Shown in pieces: positions 8,346 to 31,247 of a DNA stretch of 64,000 nt (its first letter is position 1; the number at the start of each line of letters is the position of its first letter). The stretch spans positions 4,526,001 through 4,590,000 of the forward strand of contig NC_013131.1 in the NCBI RefSeq assembly GCF_000024025.1, read 5' to 3'. A program made the position numbers and the translations under genes. This DNA comes from Catenulispora acidiphila DSM 44928 (GTDB lineage: Bacteria > Actinomycetota > Actinomycetes > Streptomycetales > Catenulisporaceae). The notes beneath the pieces were generated by a model. It did not search any database, was not told the origin of the DNA, and saw only the letters and a program-made list of their open reading frames with translations.

Positions 8346-8601
8346 AAGGCGGTGCTTGTCGCGCTGCTCGGCGTTGCAGTCACCACCGGCTGGCAAATCA
8401 GTCCGACGCTGCCATGGAACCTGGTCACCGATCACCTGTAGGCCGCGCAAGCCGCCGAGGTCGCGCCGCCATGCACAGGCCCGACGGCGAACGCGCCGGT
8501 GCCGCCATTCGCCCGGCGCCTATTGCCTGATGTAGGCCGAACAATGCCGCGGCTGTCAAGCACCGCAGCCGTAGAGCTTTCTCACGCCACTGATCCGGCT
8601 C

Positions 8602-8642
8602 TGCCTGAGGCCCCGTGACCGTCGGGAGCGAGGCCTCAGGCA
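8602..8642. terminator. Bidirectional stem-loop terminator
   Basis: TGCCTGAGGCC (8602-8612) pairs perfectly with GGCCTCAGGCA (8632-8642), 19-base loop; it lies 43 bases after the stop of the minus-strand lipoprotein gene. The minus-strand side has no clear U tract. Confidence 0.65.
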
Positions 8643-8684
8643 ACCTTTCGTCGTTTCTGGGCTTCCGTGTCGGTGGCAGTCCGT

Positions 8685-9266
8685 CTATTGCGGGGTGAAC
8701 GTTGATGCGGCTTGTGCCTTGCCGCGGCAATCGACCTCGGCGGCAACGTTCATGTCGGTTGAGACGCTTGTGTTCAAGCTAGGATCGATGGCATAAGTGA
8801 TCGTGGCAGTGCCCTTTTTGGCGGCGAGGTTGAACGTGTCCTCGTTGGGTGCCTTTGGGGCGTTTCCAGGCGGCATCGGAATGCCAGCGAACAGTTCAGG
8901 GTATTTAGCGAAGGCTTGAGCCACTGAGGTGTCGGCGCCTGGCGCGATCCGTCCGTTGGGTGTGTAGTCGCTGAGTCTCCACCCGTCGCCGCGATGCGAC
9001 ATGGCTGCGTAGATCTCGCAGTCGCCGGACCATTGTCCGTTCCATGAAATCGTGATAATTGCGTATGATCCGTTTGAAAAGTTCGCTTTGTTACTAGCTG
9101 CGAGCTTCTGTTGTTCGCTCTTGGCCTCGCTACCTGTGAGGACGCGCACCGTGAAGCTACCGCTTACAGATGACGGCTTGCTATTAGAGCAAGACGTTAC
9201 AAGAAATCCGGGGCCGCAGAAAATGCTGGCCACGGCGATAAACCTAAGGGCGCGTCCTCGCAGCAT
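8685..9266 (-). CDS. Putative lipoprotein of unknown function
   Basis: 193 residues. The N-terminus MLRGRALRFIAVASIFCGPG is a basic-hydrophobic signal and VTSC (Cys near residue 26) is an acceptable lipobox. The mature part has no known domain; SYAIITISWNGQWSGDCEI and ATITYAIDPSLNTSV look like exported beta structure. Two Cys (CEI and DCRG) could form a disulphide. It ends at a perfect stem-loop and lies 20 bases downstream of the secreted-protein gene, so both may be one unit. Confidence 0.65.
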   Translation of the reverse strand: MLRGRALRFIAVASIFCGPGFLVTSCSNSKPSSVSGSFTVRVLTGSEAKSEQQKLAASNKANFSNGSYAIITISWNGQWSGDCEIYAAMSHRGDGWRLSDYTPNGRIAPGADTSVAQAFAKYPELFAGIPMPPGNAPKAPNEDTFNLAAKKGTATITYAIDPSLNTSVSTDMNVAAEVDCRGKAQAASTFTPQ

Positions 9267-23287: not shown

Positions 23288-23896
23288 TCAGGTGCCGTTG
23301 GTGCGGCGCAGCATCGGGTACATGTGTGCCCCGGAGGGCAGGATGATCGGGTCGTCGAGGTCGGTGTAGCCGTGGCGCAGGTAGAGCTCTCTGGTGGTGG
23401 CGTCGCTGGCTTCCAGGTAGGCGGCGCGGGGTGGGTCTTCGGCGTCTAGGTGGTCGTGGTGCGCGGCTAGTAGTGCGGTGCCGATGCCTTGGTGTTGGTG
23501 GTGGGGGTCGACGGCGAGGATGGCTAGGTGGTCGTGGGCGGTGTCGTGGGGGTGGTGCTCGGCCAGCAGTGCGTCGAAGATTCGGAATCGGTCGACCCAG
23601 ATGCCGGTGGCTGCCGGCAGGCCGGCGTCGTAGCCGGACGAGTCTGGTTCCTCGTTGGGGGTCGAGGGAAGCCACAGGGCGACTGCGGTGAGTTCGAGGG
23701 TGGTGTAGACGCGTCCGCGGGCCATCGCCTCGTCGACGAACAGGCGGAAGTAGCCGGGGAACAGGCGGGTACGCCCCTCGCTGTCAGGGATCAGCCACAC
23801 CGAGGGTGCCAGGTCGTGGAAGGCCCGTGCGATCACGCGGCTCAGTGCGGTGGCGTCCTGCGGCTGCGCGGGGACGATCTGGTGCCGTGGGCTCAT
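23288..23896 (-). CDS. GNAT-family N-acetyltransferase
   Basis: 202 residues from ATG 23896, which overlaps the permease stop as ATGA and follows GAGGAGC, so translation is coupled. The acetyl-CoA loop is LAILAVDPHHQHQGIGTALL (Q-x-x-G-x-G/A) and the C-terminal strand AYLEASDATTRELYLRHGY is typical. Substrate unknown; close coupling to an amino-acid-type permease suggests a small amine. Confidence 0.85.
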   Translation of the reverse strand: MSPRHQIVPAQPQDATALSRVIARAFHDLAPSVWLIPDSEGRTRLFPGYFRLFVDEAMARGRVYTTLELTAVALWLPSTPNEEPDSSGYDAGLPAATGIWVDRFRIFDALLAEHHPHDTAHDHLAILAVDPHHQHQGIGTALLAAHHDHLDAEDPPRAAYLEASDATTRELYLRHGYTDLDDPIILPSGAHMYPMLRRTNGT

Positions 23897-25416
23897 TGCG
23901 TGCTCCTCGTAGTCTTCGCAGACGGCGTCGTCGAGGTCCCGGCGGTGGTGGTGATGCTGTGGGCCATTGCGGCGCTGCCCAAGCCGATGGCTGCGTAGGC
24001 GTCGGGCTGGCGGTGTTTGAGCACCAGCGCCCAGCCGGCGCCGACGACGGCGGCGATGCCGAACAGCCCGGGCAGGATTTTGGTGGGCAGCGAGCCGGGT
24101 GCGACGTTGAGCAGCACATCGAAGTGTTCGATGCACAACCACGCCATCACCGCCAGTAGCACCGTCGCGGCTGTCGGCGCTACCAGGCGCCGCCACACCG
24201 GCTCGCCAGCGGGCAACGTCCAGAAGTAGCGGACGACCGCGGCCGAGGTCGCCGTCAACAGCAGCAGAATCCCGACACCGCCGGTCGTTCCGCCCCAGAA
24301 GAACAGTTGCCCGACCGGATCCCAGTGCAGGCCCAGCGCCATCAAGATCGCCGCCGCACCCAGCAGGCTCTGCACGATGGAGGCCGCCCGGGGCGCCCCG
24401 GTGGAACCGGTGGTGCCCATCACCGCCGGCAGCACCCGCTCCCGGCCCAAAGCCCACATGTATCGGCCGACCGCGCTGTGGAACGCCAACGCCGCCGCGA
24501 GCAGGCTGGTCAGGAACAAGCTGCGGCCGATGCTGGCCACGGTTCCCGGGGCCATCGCGAACAGCATCCCGGTGCCGTCTGGGCCCTGAGCTGTCGGCAC
24601 CACCTGGTCGCCGTAGTGCACGACCAAAGCCCAGGACGCGGCAGCGTAAACAGCGGCGATCACGGCCAGGGAGATGTAGGTGGCCGTCGGGATCGTGCGC
24701 TGTGGGTCGCGTGCCTCCTCGCTGAACACCGGTCCCTGCTCCACCCCGACGAAGCCCAGCACGGCCACAGCCAGCACCGCACCCAAGCTAGAGGCATGCA
24801 GGCTCCTCGGGGACAGCGCCGCGAAACTGACACCGCCCGCCGCCGGGTGTGTCAGACCCCGTATCGTCACCGTGGCGATGACCACCAGCTCCAGGACCGA
24901 CAGCACGCCCAACACCCGGCCGCTCAAGTCCACCCGCGCCAGCCCCAACACAGTCACCACCGCCCACGCGCCGAACGCCCACACGCCCCACGGCAGGTGA
25001 ACGTCGAAGTTGTCGGCGGCGAAGGAGGCCAGTTGCGGCCCGATCATCCCGTACAGCCCGACCTGCAACAGGTTGTAGGCGACCACCGCCACCAACGCCC
25101 CGGCCACCCCGGCAGGCTTGCCCAGGCCTTGGGAGATGAATGAGTAGGCCGCCCCGGCGTTCGGGATCCTGCGCGCCATCGCCAGGTATCCGATGACGAA
25201 CACAGCCAGCACCGCCGCGACCACCAGGAACGCGGCCGGCACACTGGTCAGGCCGGTCGCGGCGAACGCCGAGGGCACCACCCCCTCGGTCACGGTCAAC
25301 GGCGCGACCCCAGCGAGGATGAAGAACCCCACAGCGGGCGCACCCAGCCGTTCTTTGGCCAGCGCCGCCGACATCTTGCTCGGGGCCGGAGCCGAAGCCG
25401 GTGATGGTATCGACAC
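23893..25416 (-). CDS. APC-superfamily amino acid/amine permease
   Basis: 507 residues from GTG 25416 behind AAGAGGGAG. About twelve to fourteen membrane segments. The first helix holds GFFILAGVAPLTVTEGVVPS, the second segment GYLAMARRIPNAGAAYSFIS (the APC NAGAxYxF motif), and FVGVEQGPVFSEEARDPQRT IPTATYISL the conserved E-E loop (written as two pieces). It imports or exchanges an amino acid or amine across the membrane. It follows the GOLPH3-like gene by 53 bases and is coupled to the GNAT gene. Confidence 0.88.
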   Translation of the reverse strand: MSIPSPASAPAPSKMSAALAKERLGAPAVGFFILAGVAPLTVTEGVVPSAFAATGLTSVPAAFLVVAAVLAVFVIGYLAMARRIPNAGAAYSFISQGLGKPAGVAGALVAVVAYNLLQVGLYGMIGPQLASFAADNFDVHLPWGVWAFGAWAVVTVLGLARVDLSGRVLGVLSVLELVVIATVTIRGLTHPAAGGVSFAALSPRSLHASSLGAVLAVAVLGFVGVEQGPVFSEEARDPQRTIPTATYISLAVIAAVYAAASWALVVHYGDQVVPTAQGPDGTGMLFAMAPGTVASIGRSLFLTSLLAAALAFHSAVGRYMWALGRERVLPAVMGTTGSTGAPRAASIVQSLLGAAAILMALGLHWDPVGQLFFWGGTTGGVGILLLLTATSAAVVRYFWTLPAGEPVWRRLVAPTAATVLLAVMAWLCIEHFDVLLNVAPGSLPTKILPGLFGIAAVVGAGWALVLKHRQPDAYAAIGLGSAAMAHSITTTAGTSTTPSAKTTRSTQ

Positions 25417-25469
25417 AGAACACTCCCTCTTGGAAATCAACAGGCTTAGTAGGGTGATGGGCTAGGCGG

Positions 25470-26138
25470 TCAGCCTTTGCGCTGGCTCGCCACAGCGCTG
25501 CCGACCGCGGCCGCGGTGTGGGCCACCAGCTCCACGAGCACCGGATTGAAGACCGCCAACGGCGAAAGCGTCTGCTCCAGCAGCCCCGGATCGGTCAGCA
25601 GGTGGCGGATCTCCCACAAGTTCGGGTTGTCCAGACCGGTAGCGCGGGTCAGACCGAACAGCACCAGATCGGGCGCCGTCGCCGCACCGTTGTAGATCTT
25701 GCGTGTCACATCAACCGCCGGCCAGCTGGCCGCCTGCGCATCGACCGGCAGCCACCGGCCGGGCCTGCCCGGCACCTTGAACCGAGGCTCGTGAAACTGG
25801 GCGACGCCCGAAGCCCGCAACCGTCGCCCCACCAATTCGGTCGACTCCAAGCTCAGATAGTCCAGCCAGTCACGCACAGGACGGGGCGCCTCCGCCTCCA
25901 CCTCACTGCACAACCCAGCGAGCAATAGAGACCGCGGACGACGGTTGGCGGTCAGCACCAGGGTGCCTTTTTCGATATCTACCCCTCTGGTGAGGATCAG
26001 CTCGCACAGCAGCGCACCCGCCAACCCGACCGCGAGAATCCGCTCCGACAAACGGGGCCGGCCAGACGGGTCATCATTGGCCATCAGGAAGAAGTCGTTG
26101 GCCACGAACCCGGTCTTGACCTGCTGCAACTCGACCAT
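25470..26138 (-). CDS. GOLPH3/VPS74-family (GPP34) protein
   Basis: 222 residues from ATG 26138, overlapping the upstream stop as TGATG. The N-terminal ANDFFLMANDDPSGRP, LSERILAVGLAGALLCELIL and the C-terminal hydrophobic helices (LLTDPGLLEQTLSPLAVF, VELVAHTAAAV) fit bacterial GPP34 proteins, which in eukaryotes bind phosphoinositides. In actinobacteria their role is undefined. It sits within a run of overlapping genes. Confidence 0.7.
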   Translation of the reverse strand: MVELQQVKTGFVANDFFLMANDDPSGRPRLSERILAVGLAGALLCELILTRGVDIEKGTLVLTANRRPRSLLLAGLCSEVEAEAPRPVRDWLDYLSLESTELVGRRLRASGVAQFHEPRFKVPGRPGRWLPVDAQAASWPAVDVTRKIYNGAATAPDLVLFGLTRATGLDNPNLWEIRHLLTDPGLLEQTLSPLAVFNPVLVELVAHTAAAVGSAVASQRKG

Positions 26139-26428
26139 CAGACCGTCACCACCGTGTGCACGGAGCGATCTTCGTCGGGCTCGGGGATGATCTCGATCCG
26201 AGTGCGCCGCGAGTCCGGCCACTCCCAGAAGAACCCGGTCCGCAGATCGCCATCCATCACCACATCAGGACTGCGACACCAGCGCCGGAAAGTCGACTCC
26301 GCGGCCGCGCCGCAGATATTTCGCACGAACACTCCGCTGATCAGGATCACGTAGCGCTCAGACGTAGCCGCCGAGTCGAGCAGAGGCTCCGGAGCGACCC
26401 GATGAGCCAGCGCACAGGAGGTCATCAT
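26138..26428 (-). CDS. Hypothetical protein (96 aa)
   Basis: Overlaps the gene upstream (ATGA at 26425-26428) and the GOLPH3-like gene downstream. SERYVILISGVFVRNICGAA, then WPDSRRTRIEIIPEPDEDRS; small alpha/beta protein with no known family. Tight overlaps on both sides show it is translated as part of the operon. Confidence 0.7.
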   Translation of the reverse strand: MMTSCALAHRVAPEPLLDSAATSERYVILISGVFVRNICGAAAESTFRRWCRSPDVVMDGDLRTGFFWEWPDSRRTRIEIIPEPDEDRSVHTVVTV

Positions 26429-27252
26429 GAGACCCCTGACTCGGCGCTGTCGGAGGCCTCGGTGACGCGATAGTGGGACCTGCCCAGGTACTCGGTACAG
26501 GAGCCGGTCTCGATCCGGTCTCCGGCGATGGGCAGGGAGAACGCGGCGTTGATATCCATCGAGACTTCACGGTCATCTGCCTGCTCCCTTAGACACTTGC
26601 CAATCTCCTCGCGCGTGCCGGTGAAGTTCTGCCTTCCGTCGATGCGTTCCTCGCGCACTGCACTTGTCCTTCGGATGCCAGGGAGTGGGGCAGTGCTGAC
26701 GCGATCGGCGATAGTGGCTGCGGCCTGTGCGATGGTCTCGGCGGGAATCTGTGAGCACGTCCACGCCGCAGCGCTGATCCGGTAGGCGGAACGCCGGTCC
26801 GCTCCGTACAGGAAGGCGGCTTCTGCCCCGGCACCGGTGGCTTTCGTGCTCCACAGGCAACAGGCGATCAGGTAAGCGTTGAACGGGTCCTCCGCCAACA
26901 CCGCGAAGGACCGGACGCGACGACGGCCGTGCTGGTCCGTCGGCCACCACAGCTCGACGGTGACCAGGATCGGGTGCGGGGTGTTCGGCCAGACTGGAGC
27001 GGCCAGGGGGACCACCGCGTACGAGCGTCGTGGGTGTGAACCGGGCGCAACCCAGGCGAAGCCGCTGGCCACGTCGCCGGTGACGTCGAGCAGTGGTGTG
27101 TTGATGATCTGCTCCAGCAGTGCTTCAGCGCGGCTTCGCCGAATCAGCTCAACTCCGGCGCCGTTGACGACGTGGAGAAACACGGTTACGACTGGGGCGG
27201 AGAGAGCGGCGTCGCGTTCATCAGTTACACGCGGGGGCATCAGATACCCCAT
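26425..27252 (-). CDS. Hypothetical protein (275 aa)
   Basis: Soluble protein with VVTVFLHVVNGAGVELIRRS, ILVTVELWWPTDQHGRRRVR, SFAVLAEDPFNAYLIACCLW and a C-terminal VSMDINAAFSLPIAGDRIET segment. No family is recognised. It overlaps the small gene before it by 13 bases and the next gene by 4. Its place as second gene behind a shared XRE operator suggests it is under the same control as the rest of the run. Confidence 0.75.
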   Translation of the reverse strand: MGYLMPPRVTDERDAALSAPVVTVFLHVVNGAGVELIRRSRAEALLEQIINTPLLDVTGDVASGFAWVAPGSHPRRSYAVVPLAAPVWPNTPHPILVTVELWWPTDQHGRRRVRSFAVLAEDPFNAYLIACCLWSTKATGAGAEAAFLYGADRRSAYRISAAAWTCSQIPAETIAQAAATIADRVSTAPLPGIRRTSAVREERIDGRQNFTGTREEIGKCLREQADDREVSMDINAAFSLPIAGDRIETGSCTEYLGRSHYRVTEASDSAESGVS

Positions 27253-27491
27253 TTATGCTGCCGACGTTGGGCGTCAGCTTCGGTGGCTTCGGTGAGGCTG
27301 AAAGTCAGGTCCTGAACTTCGTTGCGCCAGGCGGCGCTTCCGCTGACCAGGCTCCCGAAGATCTCAAACCCGTTGTCGGCCGCTCGTCGCAGAGCTGCCT
27401 CGGCATGGACTTCGTCGAGAAGCTCGCCGGGTTCGGCGCCATTGCAGCGCTTGATGAACTGCCGAACCGCCGGTTCGGTGGAGGGGGTCAT
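27240..27491 (-). CDS. Hypothetical protein (83 aa), first gene of the operon
   Basis: ATG 27491 follows GGTGGAG. TEPAVRQFIKRCNGAEPGEL, ALRRAADNGFEIFGSLVSGS and LTFSLTEATEADAQRRQ make a short helical protein of unknown family. A perfect palindrome lies 36 bases upstream (27527-27542). Confidence 0.7.
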   Translation of the reverse strand: MTPSTEPAVRQFIKRCNGAEPGELLDEVHAEAALRRAADNGFEIFGSLVSGSAAWRNEVQDLTFSLTEATEADAQRRQHKWGI

Positions 27492-27526
27492 GTCTCCACC
27501 TTGACGTTACGGTCAGTGATTTTCCA

Positions 27527-27542
27527 ATGACAGTTCTGTCAT
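27527..27542. promoter_or_regulatory. Putative XRE operator upstream of the 27491 operon
   Basis: ATGACAGTTCTGTCAT, a perfect 7-2-7 inverted repeat; 15 of 16 bases recur at 29991-30006 upstream of the XRE gene. Confidence 0.65.
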
Positions 27543-27551
27543 GAGGTTGCG

Positions 27552-28478
27552 CTAGCTGTTCGACTTCTCTGCATCCCAGGCGTCGCCGATGATCTGTTCC
27601 AAGTCGGAGCGTGTCGGGATCCAGCGGAGCGTCGTCAACGCGCGGGTGGTGTCGGCTCGAAGCTCTGGTGCCTCTGGCGCTGGCGGGTTGTGCTTCGCGG
27701 GAATCTCATGCCCTGTGATCTTCCTGGTGATCTCAATGATCTGAGCCACTGTGGCGGGAGTCGCACCAATGTTGAAGATATCGAACTTACCCGGCTGCGC
27801 GGCGCCGATCGCGAGGCAGAAAGCGTTGGCCAAGTCGGCGATATGCACGTAGTCACGGATCGCGCTGCCGTCGCCGTTGACCGTTACCTCGTCGAACCGC
27901 CCGCCGGCGACGGCTACCACCTTGGGAAGGATGCGAGTCAGGTCGGGATCAGGGTGCCGGCCCACCGCACCTGCGATGTTGAAGGCGCGCAGGCTTACTC
28001 CACCGATGCTGCCTTTCACAGCGGCGTCGCGTACGGCCATGTCCGCAGCCAACTTCGTCTCGCCGTACGGACTGGTCGGCGCGGGTTCGCAGTCCTCACC
28101 GATGGGCTGCTTTTCTGGAGTGCCGTATACCGCGGCTGTAGAAGCATGGATGAATGGCATGACGCGTCCGGTGCTGGCTACTGCCGCAAGGAGGTGCTCC
28201 GTCCCCACCGTGTTGATCATGGCGTACTCGCCCGGCTGGGCGAACGACTCGCGGACTCGAGTCAGAGCGGCTAGATGTGCCACCGCGTCGACGCGGTCGA
28301 CGGCTGCCATCAGCTGGTTCGAACTACGCAGGTCTGCGACGACGATTTGCACTCTGCCGGAAGGTTGTGTCCTGTTTGGTTGCGTGGTCATGGCCACGAC
28401 CTCATGACCGGTATCGAGCAGAGCGCGGGTTACAGCGCGACCTACGTACCCGAATGCCCCGGTGACCAGTACCCGCAA
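27552..28478 (-). CDS. NAD-dependent epimerase/dehydratase (extended SDR)
   Basis: 308 residues. Nucleotide loop VTGAFGYVGRAV (TGxxGxxG), catalytic pair SPYGETKLAAD (YxxxK; with FIHASTAAVYG supplying the Ser/Thr), and RDYVHIADLANAF, the sugar-nucleotide epimerase signature. It probably acts on a nucleotide sugar, as in the UDP-glucose 4-epimerase family. It starts 10 bases after the XRE gene's stop and is thus its operon partner. Confidence 0.88.
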   Translation of the reverse strand: MRVLVTGAFGYVGRAVTRALLDTGHEVVAMTTQPNRTQPSGRVQIVVADLRSSNQLMAAVDRVDAVAHLAALTRVRESFAQPGEYAMINTVGTEHLLAAVASTGRVMPFIHASTAAVYGTPEKQPIGEDCEPAPTSPYGETKLAADMAVRDAAVKGSIGGVSLRAFNIAGAVGRHPDPDLTRILPKVVAVAGGRFDEVTVNGDGSAIRDYVHIADLANAFCLAIGAAQPGKFDIFNIGATPATVAQIIEITRKITGHEIPAKHNPPAPEAPELRADTTRALTTLRWIPTRSDLEQIIGDAWDAEKSNS

Positions 28479-28488
28479 GACGGCCCTC

Positions 28489-29940
28489 CTAGCCCTTCAA
28501 CAACAGGTCTCGATGATGCCACGCAAGGTATAGACACGCCGCTGCGGCAGGGGCCAAGCGCTCCTCGGCCAACAGTCGGGTGATGTTGTCATTGGTGAAA
28601 GCGATTCCGGCTTCGGGGCGGGCAGGATCGGTGCCTGTCACCGTGCCTTCATTGTTGCGCCCGACTATCCCGGCGAACACCTGGTCGTACACATCGGCGT
28701 CGAATACGGCCACAGCCAGAATCTCGCCGGCCAGTGTGAGTGGATCCAAACCCAAACCGAAGCACCAGGTGCGGATAGATCTTTCCCAACGTGCCTGATT
28801 CAAGGTCCGATAGGGCTCGGTGTCAAAGTAGTCGATTGGCTCGCCGGAATCGCCGTCGGCCTCCGGATCACCCAGAAACTCCTCAGCGAACTCGCGCATC
28901 ATGTTTCGCCAAAGGTCGAAATCGTTGGCCTGATCCCATGGCAGCACCGTGGAGGGTTGGAACACTCCAGCCGGCATGACATGGATCAGGCCGCCGGCCA
29001 ACGCCACATTGGTGGCCTCGCGCCGATGTAGCACGAACGTCGCAGACCCGTCACGAGTCCGCCGCAAGGTAAGAGTGTCGATTGAGGGCAGAAGCGGGCG
29101 GCGTGCCAAATCGAAGGGATCGCTGATCAGCGATCGGAACGGCAACTGGCCCAACATCGGGTTGGCGTCCGCAGCCGTGAGCTCATGAGCCACGGCCTCG
29201 CATACATCGACCATCTCGAAGTAGGAGGTGTATCCGAATTCCATCCGGCCGCGCCCATCCGCCCAGGCCACATCCAGCAGGCGAAAGCTGCGGCGGTTGA
29301 CGAACAATGCGGGCCGGTCCACTAACCTGATCGCCTCAGAGTACCGATGGTGCCGACCTCCACGTACAGAGCGTGGCCGTACAGCCGCCGACTCAGGCTC
29401 GACCCCGGTGACGACAGGTGCAGTGGCGTCGGAGCGCCACAACAAGGTGATGGCGTCCAGATCGACGGGTGCCGAGGCGAGCCAGTCCCTACGAGTCAGT
29501 AGCGGAGTGCTCCCGATTTGGTGGGCATCCGGGTACAGGGCGGCCGCTCGTCGGCTCAGCTCGAAGCGGTGAGCGTTCAGCGAACGCCGGTGCGAACGCC
29601 ATGCACGTTGGTCCATCAGCACTTCGCGCGGTGTGGAGGCGTCTCCTCCGGCCAACGTGCCGGCTGGCTGTCCATCGGCGAGGCCCAGCTCCGCTTCAGG
29701 TAGCCCGAGTACCGCGGCGAACCGGCGCAGCTCCCCAATGTCGCGGACGAAACGCTTGCCGCGCTCCAGCATCGACAAGTAGCTCTGGTCGCAGTTCAGC
29801 AGATCTCCTAGCTCCGCCTGCGACAGATCATGCCGAGTTCGATACGCCTTCAACACATCGCCTAGATCAGAACTGTCCGGCGGAGCAGTGCGTACTGGTG
29901 GCGAGAACAGCCACCCATCAGCGCTTGAGGAGACGGTCAC
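28489..29940 (-). CDS. XRE-family regulator with large C-terminal domain
   Basis: About 483 residues from GTG 29940 (TTG 29949 in frame is the alternative; no strong ribosome site). Residues about 25-85: LGDVLKAYRTRHDLSQAELG, DLLNCDQSYLSMLERGKRFV, the helix-turn-helix. The long C-terminal part (SFRLLDVAWADGRGRMEFGY, HVMPAGVFQPSTVLP, REFAEEFLGDPEAD) contains a stretch like a degenerate NUDIX fold. It sits between two copies of one palindrome, its own promoter and the next operon, so it is likely the repressor or activator of both. Confidence 0.8.
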   Translation of the reverse strand: MTVSSSADGWLFSPPVRTAPPDSSDLGDVLKAYRTRHDLSQAELGDLLNCDQSYLSMLERGKRFVRDIGELRRFAAVLGLPEAELGLADGQPAGTLAGGDASTPREVLMDQRAWRSHRRSLNAHRFELSRRAAALYPDAHQIGSTPLLTRRDWLASAPVDLDAITLLWRSDATAPVVTGVEPESAAVRPRSVRGGRHHRYSEAIRLVDRPALFVNRRSFRLLDVAWADGRGRMEFGYTSYFEMVDVCEAVAHELTAADANPMLGQLPFRSLISDPFDLARRPLLPSIDTLTLRRTRDGSATFVLHRREATNVALAGGLIHVMPAGVFQPSTVLPWDQANDFDLWRNMMREFAEEFLGDPEADGDSGEPIDYFDTEPYRTLNQARWERSIRTWCFGLGLDPLTLAGEILAVAVFDADVYDQVFAGIVGRNNEGTVTGTDPARPEAGIAFTNDNITRLLAEERLAPAAAACLYLAWHHRDLLLKG

Positions 29941-29990
29941 GATACTCAAGGTAGCGTCGAAACCTTTGCCCCGGCGCCGGATGACCGGCT

Positions 29991-30006
29991 ATTACAGAAC
30001 TGTCAT
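29991..30006. promoter_or_regulatory. Putative XRE operator upstream of the XRE gene
   Basis: ATTACAGAACTGTCAT, the 27527 palindrome read on the other strand with one mismatch, 51 bases before GTG 29940. Confidence 0.6.
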
Positions 30007-30212
30007 AGCTGGCTCCTCGGGCTGCTCGTGTTCGCAACATTGGGTTGCCACGCGGCGGTGTAGCCCGCCTCCGGCAGGTGCAACTCCAGGACTTCCCGAT
30101 CTGCGAGCTGGGGCTACACGGTGTTCAACGCTGAGCAACCAAGCCCGGCCCCGACAGACTGTGGCCGTGGAGGTATTTGTGCTCGCAGGGTGCTCGGTTT
30201 GTGGCTGCGTGA

Positions 30213-30923
30213 TCAGCTGACGCCTGCGGCGCTCTTCAACCGTGCGACTTGCAGGTCGGACAGGCGGAGGAGTGTCTCGCTGGCCTGGGGAAGGGGAACG
30301 ATGCCGAGATTCACCGTTCCCGTTTCCAGCATCAGCACGACCACTGGGCCGACACGGACCACGTAGGTGGTGTCCACCTCCGTGTCGGACTGTACGCTCG
30401 CCCTCGTGACGTAGCCGACGCGGTCGTCGCCGACCATCTGCGGGATCGCGGTGAGTGTCGTCGGAGTCGGCTCGTTCTCCTCGGTCTCGGTGAATGTCTT
30501 GCAGCCCTTGAGCCCCGCGGTCAGATCGGCCATCAGTGCCGAGGCCTTATCGGCGGACGGCATCACCTCCACGGCGTCCTGGATCATGGTGACGCCGTGG
30601 GCCGAGTTGAGCACCCGGCGGAGGTCGACGGTCGTGCCGTACTTCGTGGACAGTGCGTTCTCTGCATCACGGAAAGATTGGCATGCACTGTCCCCGGTGG
30701 TCACAAGAGCCGGCGTGTCCGTGGTGGACCTCACGTCTTCCGAGGCGTCGAAGTTATAGCCGGGCTGGTCCTTGTCGGTCAGCAGGAGGCTCTCGACCTG
30801 ATCGTCCGTCAGGGCGGCGGCCGAATGACCGTTGCTCTTGCCTGAGCCGCCGCAAGCCGTCACCACCAGGACGGCCGCCGCGGTGACAGCGACCGCGGAG
30901 ACGTACTTGATCCCTATATGCAT
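30213..30923 (-). CDS. Lipoprotein, possibly PknH-like sensor domain
   Basis: 236 residues. Signal YVSAVAVTAAAVLVVTACGG with lipobox VTAC (Cys near residue 24). The mature part has SACQSFRDAENALSTKYGTT, VMPSADKASALMADLTAGLK, GCKTF and YVVRVGPVVVLMLETG, which resembles extracytoplasmic sensor-type lipoproteins of mycobacteria and streptomycetes with a conserved disulphide. Function unknown. Monocistronic. Confidence 0.75.
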   Translation of the reverse strand: MHIGIKYVSAVAVTAAAVLVVTACGGSGKSNGHSAAALTDDQVESLLLTDKDQPGYNFDASEDVRSTTDTPALVTTGDSACQSFRDAENALSTKYGTTVDLRRVLNSAHGVTMIQDAVEVMPSADKASALMADLTAGLKGCKTFTETEENEPTPTTLTAIPQMVGDDRVGYVTRASVQSDTEVDTTYVVRVGPVVVLMLETGTVNLGIVPLPQASETLLRLSDLQVARLKSAAGVS

Positions 30924-30989
30924 GCTGGCATAGTGCTTTACGACGCCTCAGACTGATCATCTACCCTCCGCGCGCCGATCACGCATGGC

Positions 30990-31247
30990 TTACGCGGCAG
31001 CGTCAAAGCCATCTGCCGGTCGTAAGCCGCGTACGCGGCTTACGACCGGCAGATCGGCAGCAGGAAACAGCGGCACATGGGTAGACAGGGCATCCGGGTC
31101 ACCCTTGGCCACCACCGCAGCGACGATCCAGTCCAGCCGTTCAGGGTCGGTGATGCCGTCCTCGATGGCCTTCAGCACTGCGTGGCGGATGGTGCGGGAC
31201 TGCGCTGCTGCCCCACGGGTGTCGGCCCTGTCGACAGGCTCAGCCAA
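30990..31247 (-). CDS. Small hypothetical protein (85 aa)
   Basis: SRTIRHAVLKAIEDGITDPE, RLDWIVAAVVAKGDPDALS is a plausible helical domain; the last 20 residues are encoded within a 44-bp perfect palindrome, so the end of the protein may be accidental. No family recognised and no strong ribosome site. Confidence 0.45.
   Translation of the reverse strand: MAEPVDRADTRGAAAQSRTIRHAVLKAIEDGITDPERLDWIVAAVVAKGDPDALSTHVPLFPAADLPVVSRVRGLRPADGFDAAA
31011..31054. repeat. Perfect 44-bp palindrome
   Basis: Bases 31011-31054 equal their own reverse complement without a mismatch (arms ATCTGCCGGTCGTAAGCCGC, centre GTAC). It lies 88 bases upstream of the lipoprotein start and inside the small gene's 3' end. 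The half-site GGCTTACGCGGC recurs at 30987. Confidence 0.95.

Follow-up and report, generated by a model that had tools for sequence, protein, structure and literature searches.

Transcription regulators of the XRE/C1 type that control their own genes act on short palindromic operators at promoters. SinR and the controller C proteins of restriction-modification systems, which are autoregulators of this kind with a local operon, are small and are not known to carry an enzyme-like domain. Going by its title, Carter et al. 2018 reports that NUDT22 accepts UDP-galactose as a substrate. According to PMC10101856, human NUDT22 converts UDP-glucose to glucose-1-phosphate and UMP. The NrtR/AraR regulators (PMC4666351) join a Nudix-type effector domain to DNA binding and act at operators of metabolic genes; in them the Nudix domain lies at the N-terminus, a winged helix at the C-terminus binds DNA, and the Nudix box is impaired. 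In the open-licence literature we found nothing on the locus described here or on bacterial NUDT22-like regulators, and no XRE domain joined to one of the NUDT22 type whose box is intact. For a regulator to have its own palindrome is ordinary, and the XRE-NUDT22 fusion that we describe can be seen as a variant of the known Nudix-regulator idea.

The window, a stretch of 64,000 nucleotides from Catenulispora acidiphila DSM 44928, carries on its minus strand, in this order, an XRE regulator gene, an epimerase gene, and a second operon of p83, p275, p96 and GPP34, of which the permease gene is possibly the end:

28489..29949, minus strand, XRE regulator, 486 aa when read from TTG, with HTH_31/HTH_3 at residues 28-88 and a predicted NUDT22-like Nudix fold at residues ~143-482
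27552..28478, minus strand, NAD-dependent epimerase, GalE-like, start TTG
27240..27491, minus strand, p83, an 83-aa ORF, first gene of the second operon, overlapping p275, no Pfam/NCBIfam match
26425..27252, minus strand, p275, no Pfam/NCBIfam family match
26138..26428, minus strand, p96, no Pfam/NCBIfam family match
25470..26222, minus strand, GPP34 (Golgi phosphoprotein 3-like) protein
23893..25440, minus strand, amino-acid permease, following GPP34 here and in two sister species

Like the NrtR/AraR proteins, the XRE protein couples a predicted Nudix-fold domain to a DNA-binding domain. Its layout differs from theirs: the HTH is N-terminal and of the XRE families, the Nudix-like part is C-terminal with a fold nearest to NUDT22, and the RExxEE residues of the Nudix box (R352, E353, E356 and E357) are kept in 80/80 aligned relatives, these being the best 80 of 102 and gathered by a peptide pattern that ends just before RExxEE, so that the set may favour intact copies. 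Both HTH_31 (E 1.9e-12; 47.8 bits against a cut-off of 27) and HTH_3 (E 9.2e-8) match above their curated cut-offs, which makes the HTH one of the Cro/C1 type, and the nearest HTH sequences among solved structures are those of C.AhdI, C.BclI and SinR. Unlike SinR and the controller C proteins (chain lengths 74-111), the XRE protein carries a predicted enzyme-like domain. Pfam finds the HTH only and leaves the Nudix part unrecognised. In a structure model made from a 24-sequence alignment (pLDDT 87), residues ~143-482 are predicted to fold like human NUDT22 (Foldseek E 1.2e-8; VIA Z 20.2 over 262 residues, 3.4 A), and the four listed NUDT22 entries lead the comparison with this model at Z 17.4-20.2, the next entry being at 13.2. 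The likeness to human NUDT22 is one of overall predicted fold; identity is ~15%, and the domain here, a putative hydrolase, is fused to an XRE HTH. The relatives of this protein (L095-L174) point to a NUDT22-like Nudix family of actinobacteria, with or without an HTH, and no Pfam Nudix match was obtained among the 24 proteins of the family that were scanned. PADLOC gave HTH-type matches only for the XRE protein and none for the other five proteins. The true start of the XRE protein is likely GTG 29940 and not TTG 29949, because Frankia relatives appear to begin at the matching GTG.

The epimerase is GalE-like and falls short of the GalE equivalog (TIGR01179; 202.7 bits against a cut-off of 262.3). 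An epimerase gene directly follows that of the XRE-Nudix protein in 41/80 relatives (the best 80 of 102), and one further locus ends 13 bp past the match and could not reveal an epimerase. A second Nudix-like copy stands beside the first in 22/80 (the same best 80 of 102, by our count). Matches to p83, p275, p96 or GPP34 (E <= 1e-3) were found in 0/80 of these loci, again the best 80 of 102. The XRE-epimerase pair recurs in many genera, and its tie to the second operon does not. Three plasmid records match the XRE protein (Amycolatopsis, Streptomyces and Ruegeria), and the neighbours of the Amycolatopsis and Streptomyces relatives differ from those in the window. On a plasmid of Amycolatopsis sp. 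AA4 (L069), we noted that an albusnodin-type lasso peptide cluster has as its neighbour an XRE gene of 43% identity, which is divergent from two small hypothetical genes.

The initial annotation had reported a palindrome at 27527, before the operon starting at 27491, and a 15/16 copy of it on the opposite strand at 29991, before the XRE gene. Both the sequence and the positions are confirmed:

27527..27542, no strand assigned, palindrome copy 1, ATGACAG-TT-CTGTCAT, overlapping the -35 of the putative p83 promoter
29991..30006, no strand assigned, palindrome copy 2, with a single mismatch, preceding the XRE gene

On the plus strand copy 1 is ATGACAGTTCTGTCAT, with two 7-bp arms and a 2-bp centre, a perfect match to ATGACAGNNCTGTCAT. 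Copy 2 is ATTACAGAACTGTCAT on the plus strand and ATGACAGTTCTGTAAT on the minus strand, where its dyad extends outward to AGCTATGACAG-TT-CTGTAATAGCC. Copy 1 lies within the 60-bp gap between epimerase and p83; 10 bp separate its outer edge from the epimerase stop, and its inner edge is 36 bp upstream of ATG 27491 of p83. The inner edge of copy 2 is 42 bp upstream of the XRE start if this is TTG 29949, and 51 bp if it is GTG 29940. The two copies bracket the XRE-epimerase pair.

Across the whole genome (one contig, 10,467,782 bp), ATGACAGNNCTGTCAT has 10 places within 2 mismatches, of which one is perfect, one has a single mismatch and eight have two; copies 1 and 2, which are 2.5 kb apart, are the sole places with fewer than two mismatches. 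Under Markov models (orders 1-3, with the window as training sequence), the chance expectation per genome is 0.017 places with no mismatch, ~0.8 with one and ~16-18 with two, so that the eight two-mismatch places are fewer than chance would supply, and about 0.0002 places with at most one mismatch are expected per 2.5 kb. Shuffles of the window contain on average 0.26 matches with up to 3 mismatches, and 0/100 shuffles reach the 4 matches seen, which are two places counted on both strands. A chance origin of the palindrome pair is very unlikely. At 9519933, one of the two-mismatch places retains the whole 14-bp core TGACAGTACTGTCA, and this core is also present in two other genomes of the genus; we set the place aside as an operator candidate, as it falls within an ORF of 177 aa whose reading frame continues across it. 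The sequence TKACAGWWCTGTMA occurs in 5/147 genomes, the other two being G012 and G031, neither of which is among the genomes with an XRE match, and read by eye the place in G031 has the appearance of a longer hairpin.

A shared operator is the best reading of the two palindromes, and we infer that the protein binding it is the XRE protein. We consider binding to both copies probable, and as a whole explanation we lean, somewhat less firmly, towards the palindromes being operators of the XRE protein encoded between them. On the sequence evidence, one protein probably controls both the XRE-epimerase unit and the second operon. Candidate promoter elements lie close to both copies:

27504..27509, minus strand, TAACGT, candidate -10, the only TANNNT hexamer between copy 1 and p83
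29948..29953, minus strand, TACCTT, candidate -10, the only TANNNT hexamer between copy 2 and the XRE start

TAACGT begins 17 nt past copy 1, and a GGTGGAG ribosome site is found between it and ATG 27491. Its assignment as the -10 of a p83 promoter is weak, because a consensus scan of 27000-31000 gave no sigma-70 promoter. With this promoter, copy 1 would cover the -35 region, as expected of a repressor, and we hold the chances of repression at copy 1 to be even. A promoter at TACCTT would produce a nearly leaderless message from GTG 29940, and copy 2 would then be near -57, upstream of the regulator's own promoter, a placement that fits activation as well as repression.

If the palindrome were the operator of this regulator family, it should also precede orthologous XRE genes, as had been proposed at the outset, and this was not found. 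We scanned the whole loci of the best 80 of 102 relatives from GTDB genomes (L095-L174), and 0/80 have the palindrome within 2 mismatches. The scan returned 18 matches in 14 loci, each with exactly 3 mismatches, and just one of them, in L164, precedes the XRE match by no more than 400 bp. In this respect the upstream regions do not exceed random DNA: the best match has 3 mismatches in 9/78 of them, and matches with up to 3 mismatches occur in 41/390 random pieces (78/80 relatives were compared, L161 and L173 being dropped because less than 400 bp lay upstream). Another degenerate pattern, run on 29 relatives collected separately, matched only the two sites of this genome. With all 80 loci at 3 or more mismatches and the upstream regions at the random level, we reject the idea that the XRE family has this palindrome as a conserved operator; it looks private to this genome.

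The three closest relatives among the best 80 (L095-L097, from Kitasatospora and Streptomyces) have 58-60% identity and an adjoining epimerase gene. Their recognition helix, DQSYVSLLERGKR, is nearly identical to DQSYLSMLERGKR here, and despite this the palindrome was not found in them. Because these nearest relatives have almost the same helix and no palindrome, either this lineage alone gained the operator or the palindrome is bound by some other protein. We also noted that the open frame of L095-L097 begins further upstream, giving an extra N-terminal segment with two CxxC motifs that is zinc-ribbon-like by eye.

The second of these options, in which the palindromes are operators of an unlinked regulator and the XRE protein binds elsewhere, is the strongest of the alternatives, and we judge it unlikely. 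It would account for a palindrome that does not travel with the XRE gene, even among relatives with a near-identical helix, but a global regulator should have more targets than two, and beyond copies 1 and 2 the genome offers nothing within one mismatch. That both copies flank a regulator gene also speaks against it. The proposal of a shared operator and a single regulon thus stands in part: the sites are unique, lie at promoter distance before both named units and flank the regulator, whereas the relatives lack the palindrome. The regulon, if real, would be visible in this genome only.

A different conserved element was seen upstream of some relatives. Near TGTCCAAGGACTGGTTGTCCT, ~95-200 bp upstream of the XRE match, it occurs in eight loci (L127, L130, L136, L137, L139, L143, L144 and L163) of Lentzea, Amycolatopsis and allies, and it contains GTCCAAGGAC and AGGAC-N5-GTCCT dyads that are unlike the palindrome of the window. 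It is possibly the operator of that subfamily. Its seed was chosen by eye, which makes the scores of the seeds themselves (at least 24) circular; copies 1 and 2 have best scores of 2.1 and 0.7, and we claim no link between them and this element.

We then turn to the second operon in related genomes. Matches to p275 occur in 5/10 genomes of the genus, its own included; in a 394-genome sample of the class there are only this genome and two weak matches, and there is no plasmid match. The predicted fold of p275 (pLDDT 74) has no PDB match at E <= 0.001. A decayed second copy of the p275 locus, with interrupted reading frames, is present in the same genome (L175, ~8459-8935; genome 4468458). Leaving out L175 and the two weak class matches, the sister set is six p275 loci (L212-L217) in four other genomes.

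In all six sister loci, p275 stands back-to-back with a divergent regulator-like gene, and next after that gene comes one for a nucleotide hydrolase. L212 and L214 have an HD_3/YfbR-like hydrolase, as does L213 judging by its near identity to L212, and L215-L217 have a NUDIX protein. The divergent gene encodes a GntR protein in L215, where the p275 frame is interrupted, and an XRE-like protein in L212-L214, where the HTH_31 matches (E 2.7e-5 to 5.3e-4) fall short of the curated cut-off. For L216 and L217 no family matched it significantly, and there it is regulator-like by look only. In this genome, an XRE domain fused to a Nudix domain takes the place of regulator plus hydrolase, with the epimerase gene in between and in tandem, not divergent, arrangement. 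The adjoining of p275 by a regulator-like gene and a nucleotide hydrolase gene is thus a recurrent arrangement in which the proteins differ by locus, and this recurrence supports control of the operon by its neighbour.

Gene p96 is beside p275 in 3/6 sister loci. In two sister species (L212 and L213), p275-p96-GPP34-permease occur in the same order, without the XRE-epimerase pair and without the palindrome. L213 has ATGTCAGGGATCTCAT, with 3 mismatches, ~25 bp before p275, and L212, which is syntenic with it, has no palindrome match within 3 mismatches; we treat the resemblance in L213 as chance, yet it is the sole hint of an older site. The initial annotation had tied the epimerase pair to the run from p83 to GPP34. 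That p275 is beside a regulator-like gene of its own in 6/6 sister loci favours this tie, and the absence of the operon genes from the 80 loci of XRE relatives counts against it.

Another explanation for the two copies is that they are end repeats of a mobile XRE-epimerase cassette and not operators. The inverted copies do bracket exactly XRE and epimerase, and none of the 9 further genomes of the genus has a full-length XRE counterpart, although HTH-sized matches occur in three of them. The genes that flank the pair here are on separate contigs in two sister genomes. However, similarity ends at the 16-bp dyad (beyond it 26/80 flanking bases are identical in direct and 15/80 in inverted orientation), each copy is itself palindromic, the enclosed genes include no recombinase, and the genome has no further copies, and we regard a cassette as improbable. 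That the copies are RNA hairpins (an attenuator, processing site or weak terminator) is less credible still, for although each can form a hairpin whose loop is 4 nt long (-7.0 and -10.7 kcal/mol, at z -1.6 and -2.1), 13/200 and 9/200 shuffles fold equally well, neither copy is followed by a T run or coincides with a terminator in a scan of 27000-31000, and copy 2 is upstream of the putative transcription start.

Returning to the palindromes as operators of the XRE protein, we propose that a dimer would bind ATGACAGNNCTGTCAT through its Cro/C1-type helix-turn-helix. At copy 1 the dimer would cover the -35 and repress p83-p275-p96-GPP34, perhaps along with the permease gene, and at copy 2 it would regulate its own gene and that of the epimerase. 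The C-terminal domain would sense, and may hydrolyse, a nucleotide sugar, for example one of the NUDT22 substrates UDP-glucose and UDP-galactose, and sensing would alter the affinity of the protein for DNA. The part of the GalE-like epimerase would be to interconvert this signal or remove it. A nucleotide sugar as the effector is a tentative suggestion that we rate somewhat below even. Together, the XRE-Nudix protein and the epimerase may form a switch responsive to sugar nucleotides.

A broader reading, which we offer as speculation and consider doubtful, is that these proteins represent a new class of one-component regulator. In it, an XRE domain would be joined to a catalytically intact hydrolase of the NUDT22 type that senses UDP-sugars, destroys its own signal and thereby resets itself, with a GalE-like epimerase as partner. 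Here, by way of a newly arisen palindrome, such a regulator would have captured an operon that is served in sister species by other pairs of regulator and nucleotide hydrolase.

If the proposed control is true, it would add a nucleotide-sugar branch to Nudix-based control of transcription, with the box intact where NrtR/AraR have lost theirs, and a short exact DNA site would be available for testing such control. It would also mean that an operator arose in one species while the recognition helix of its regulator barely changed.
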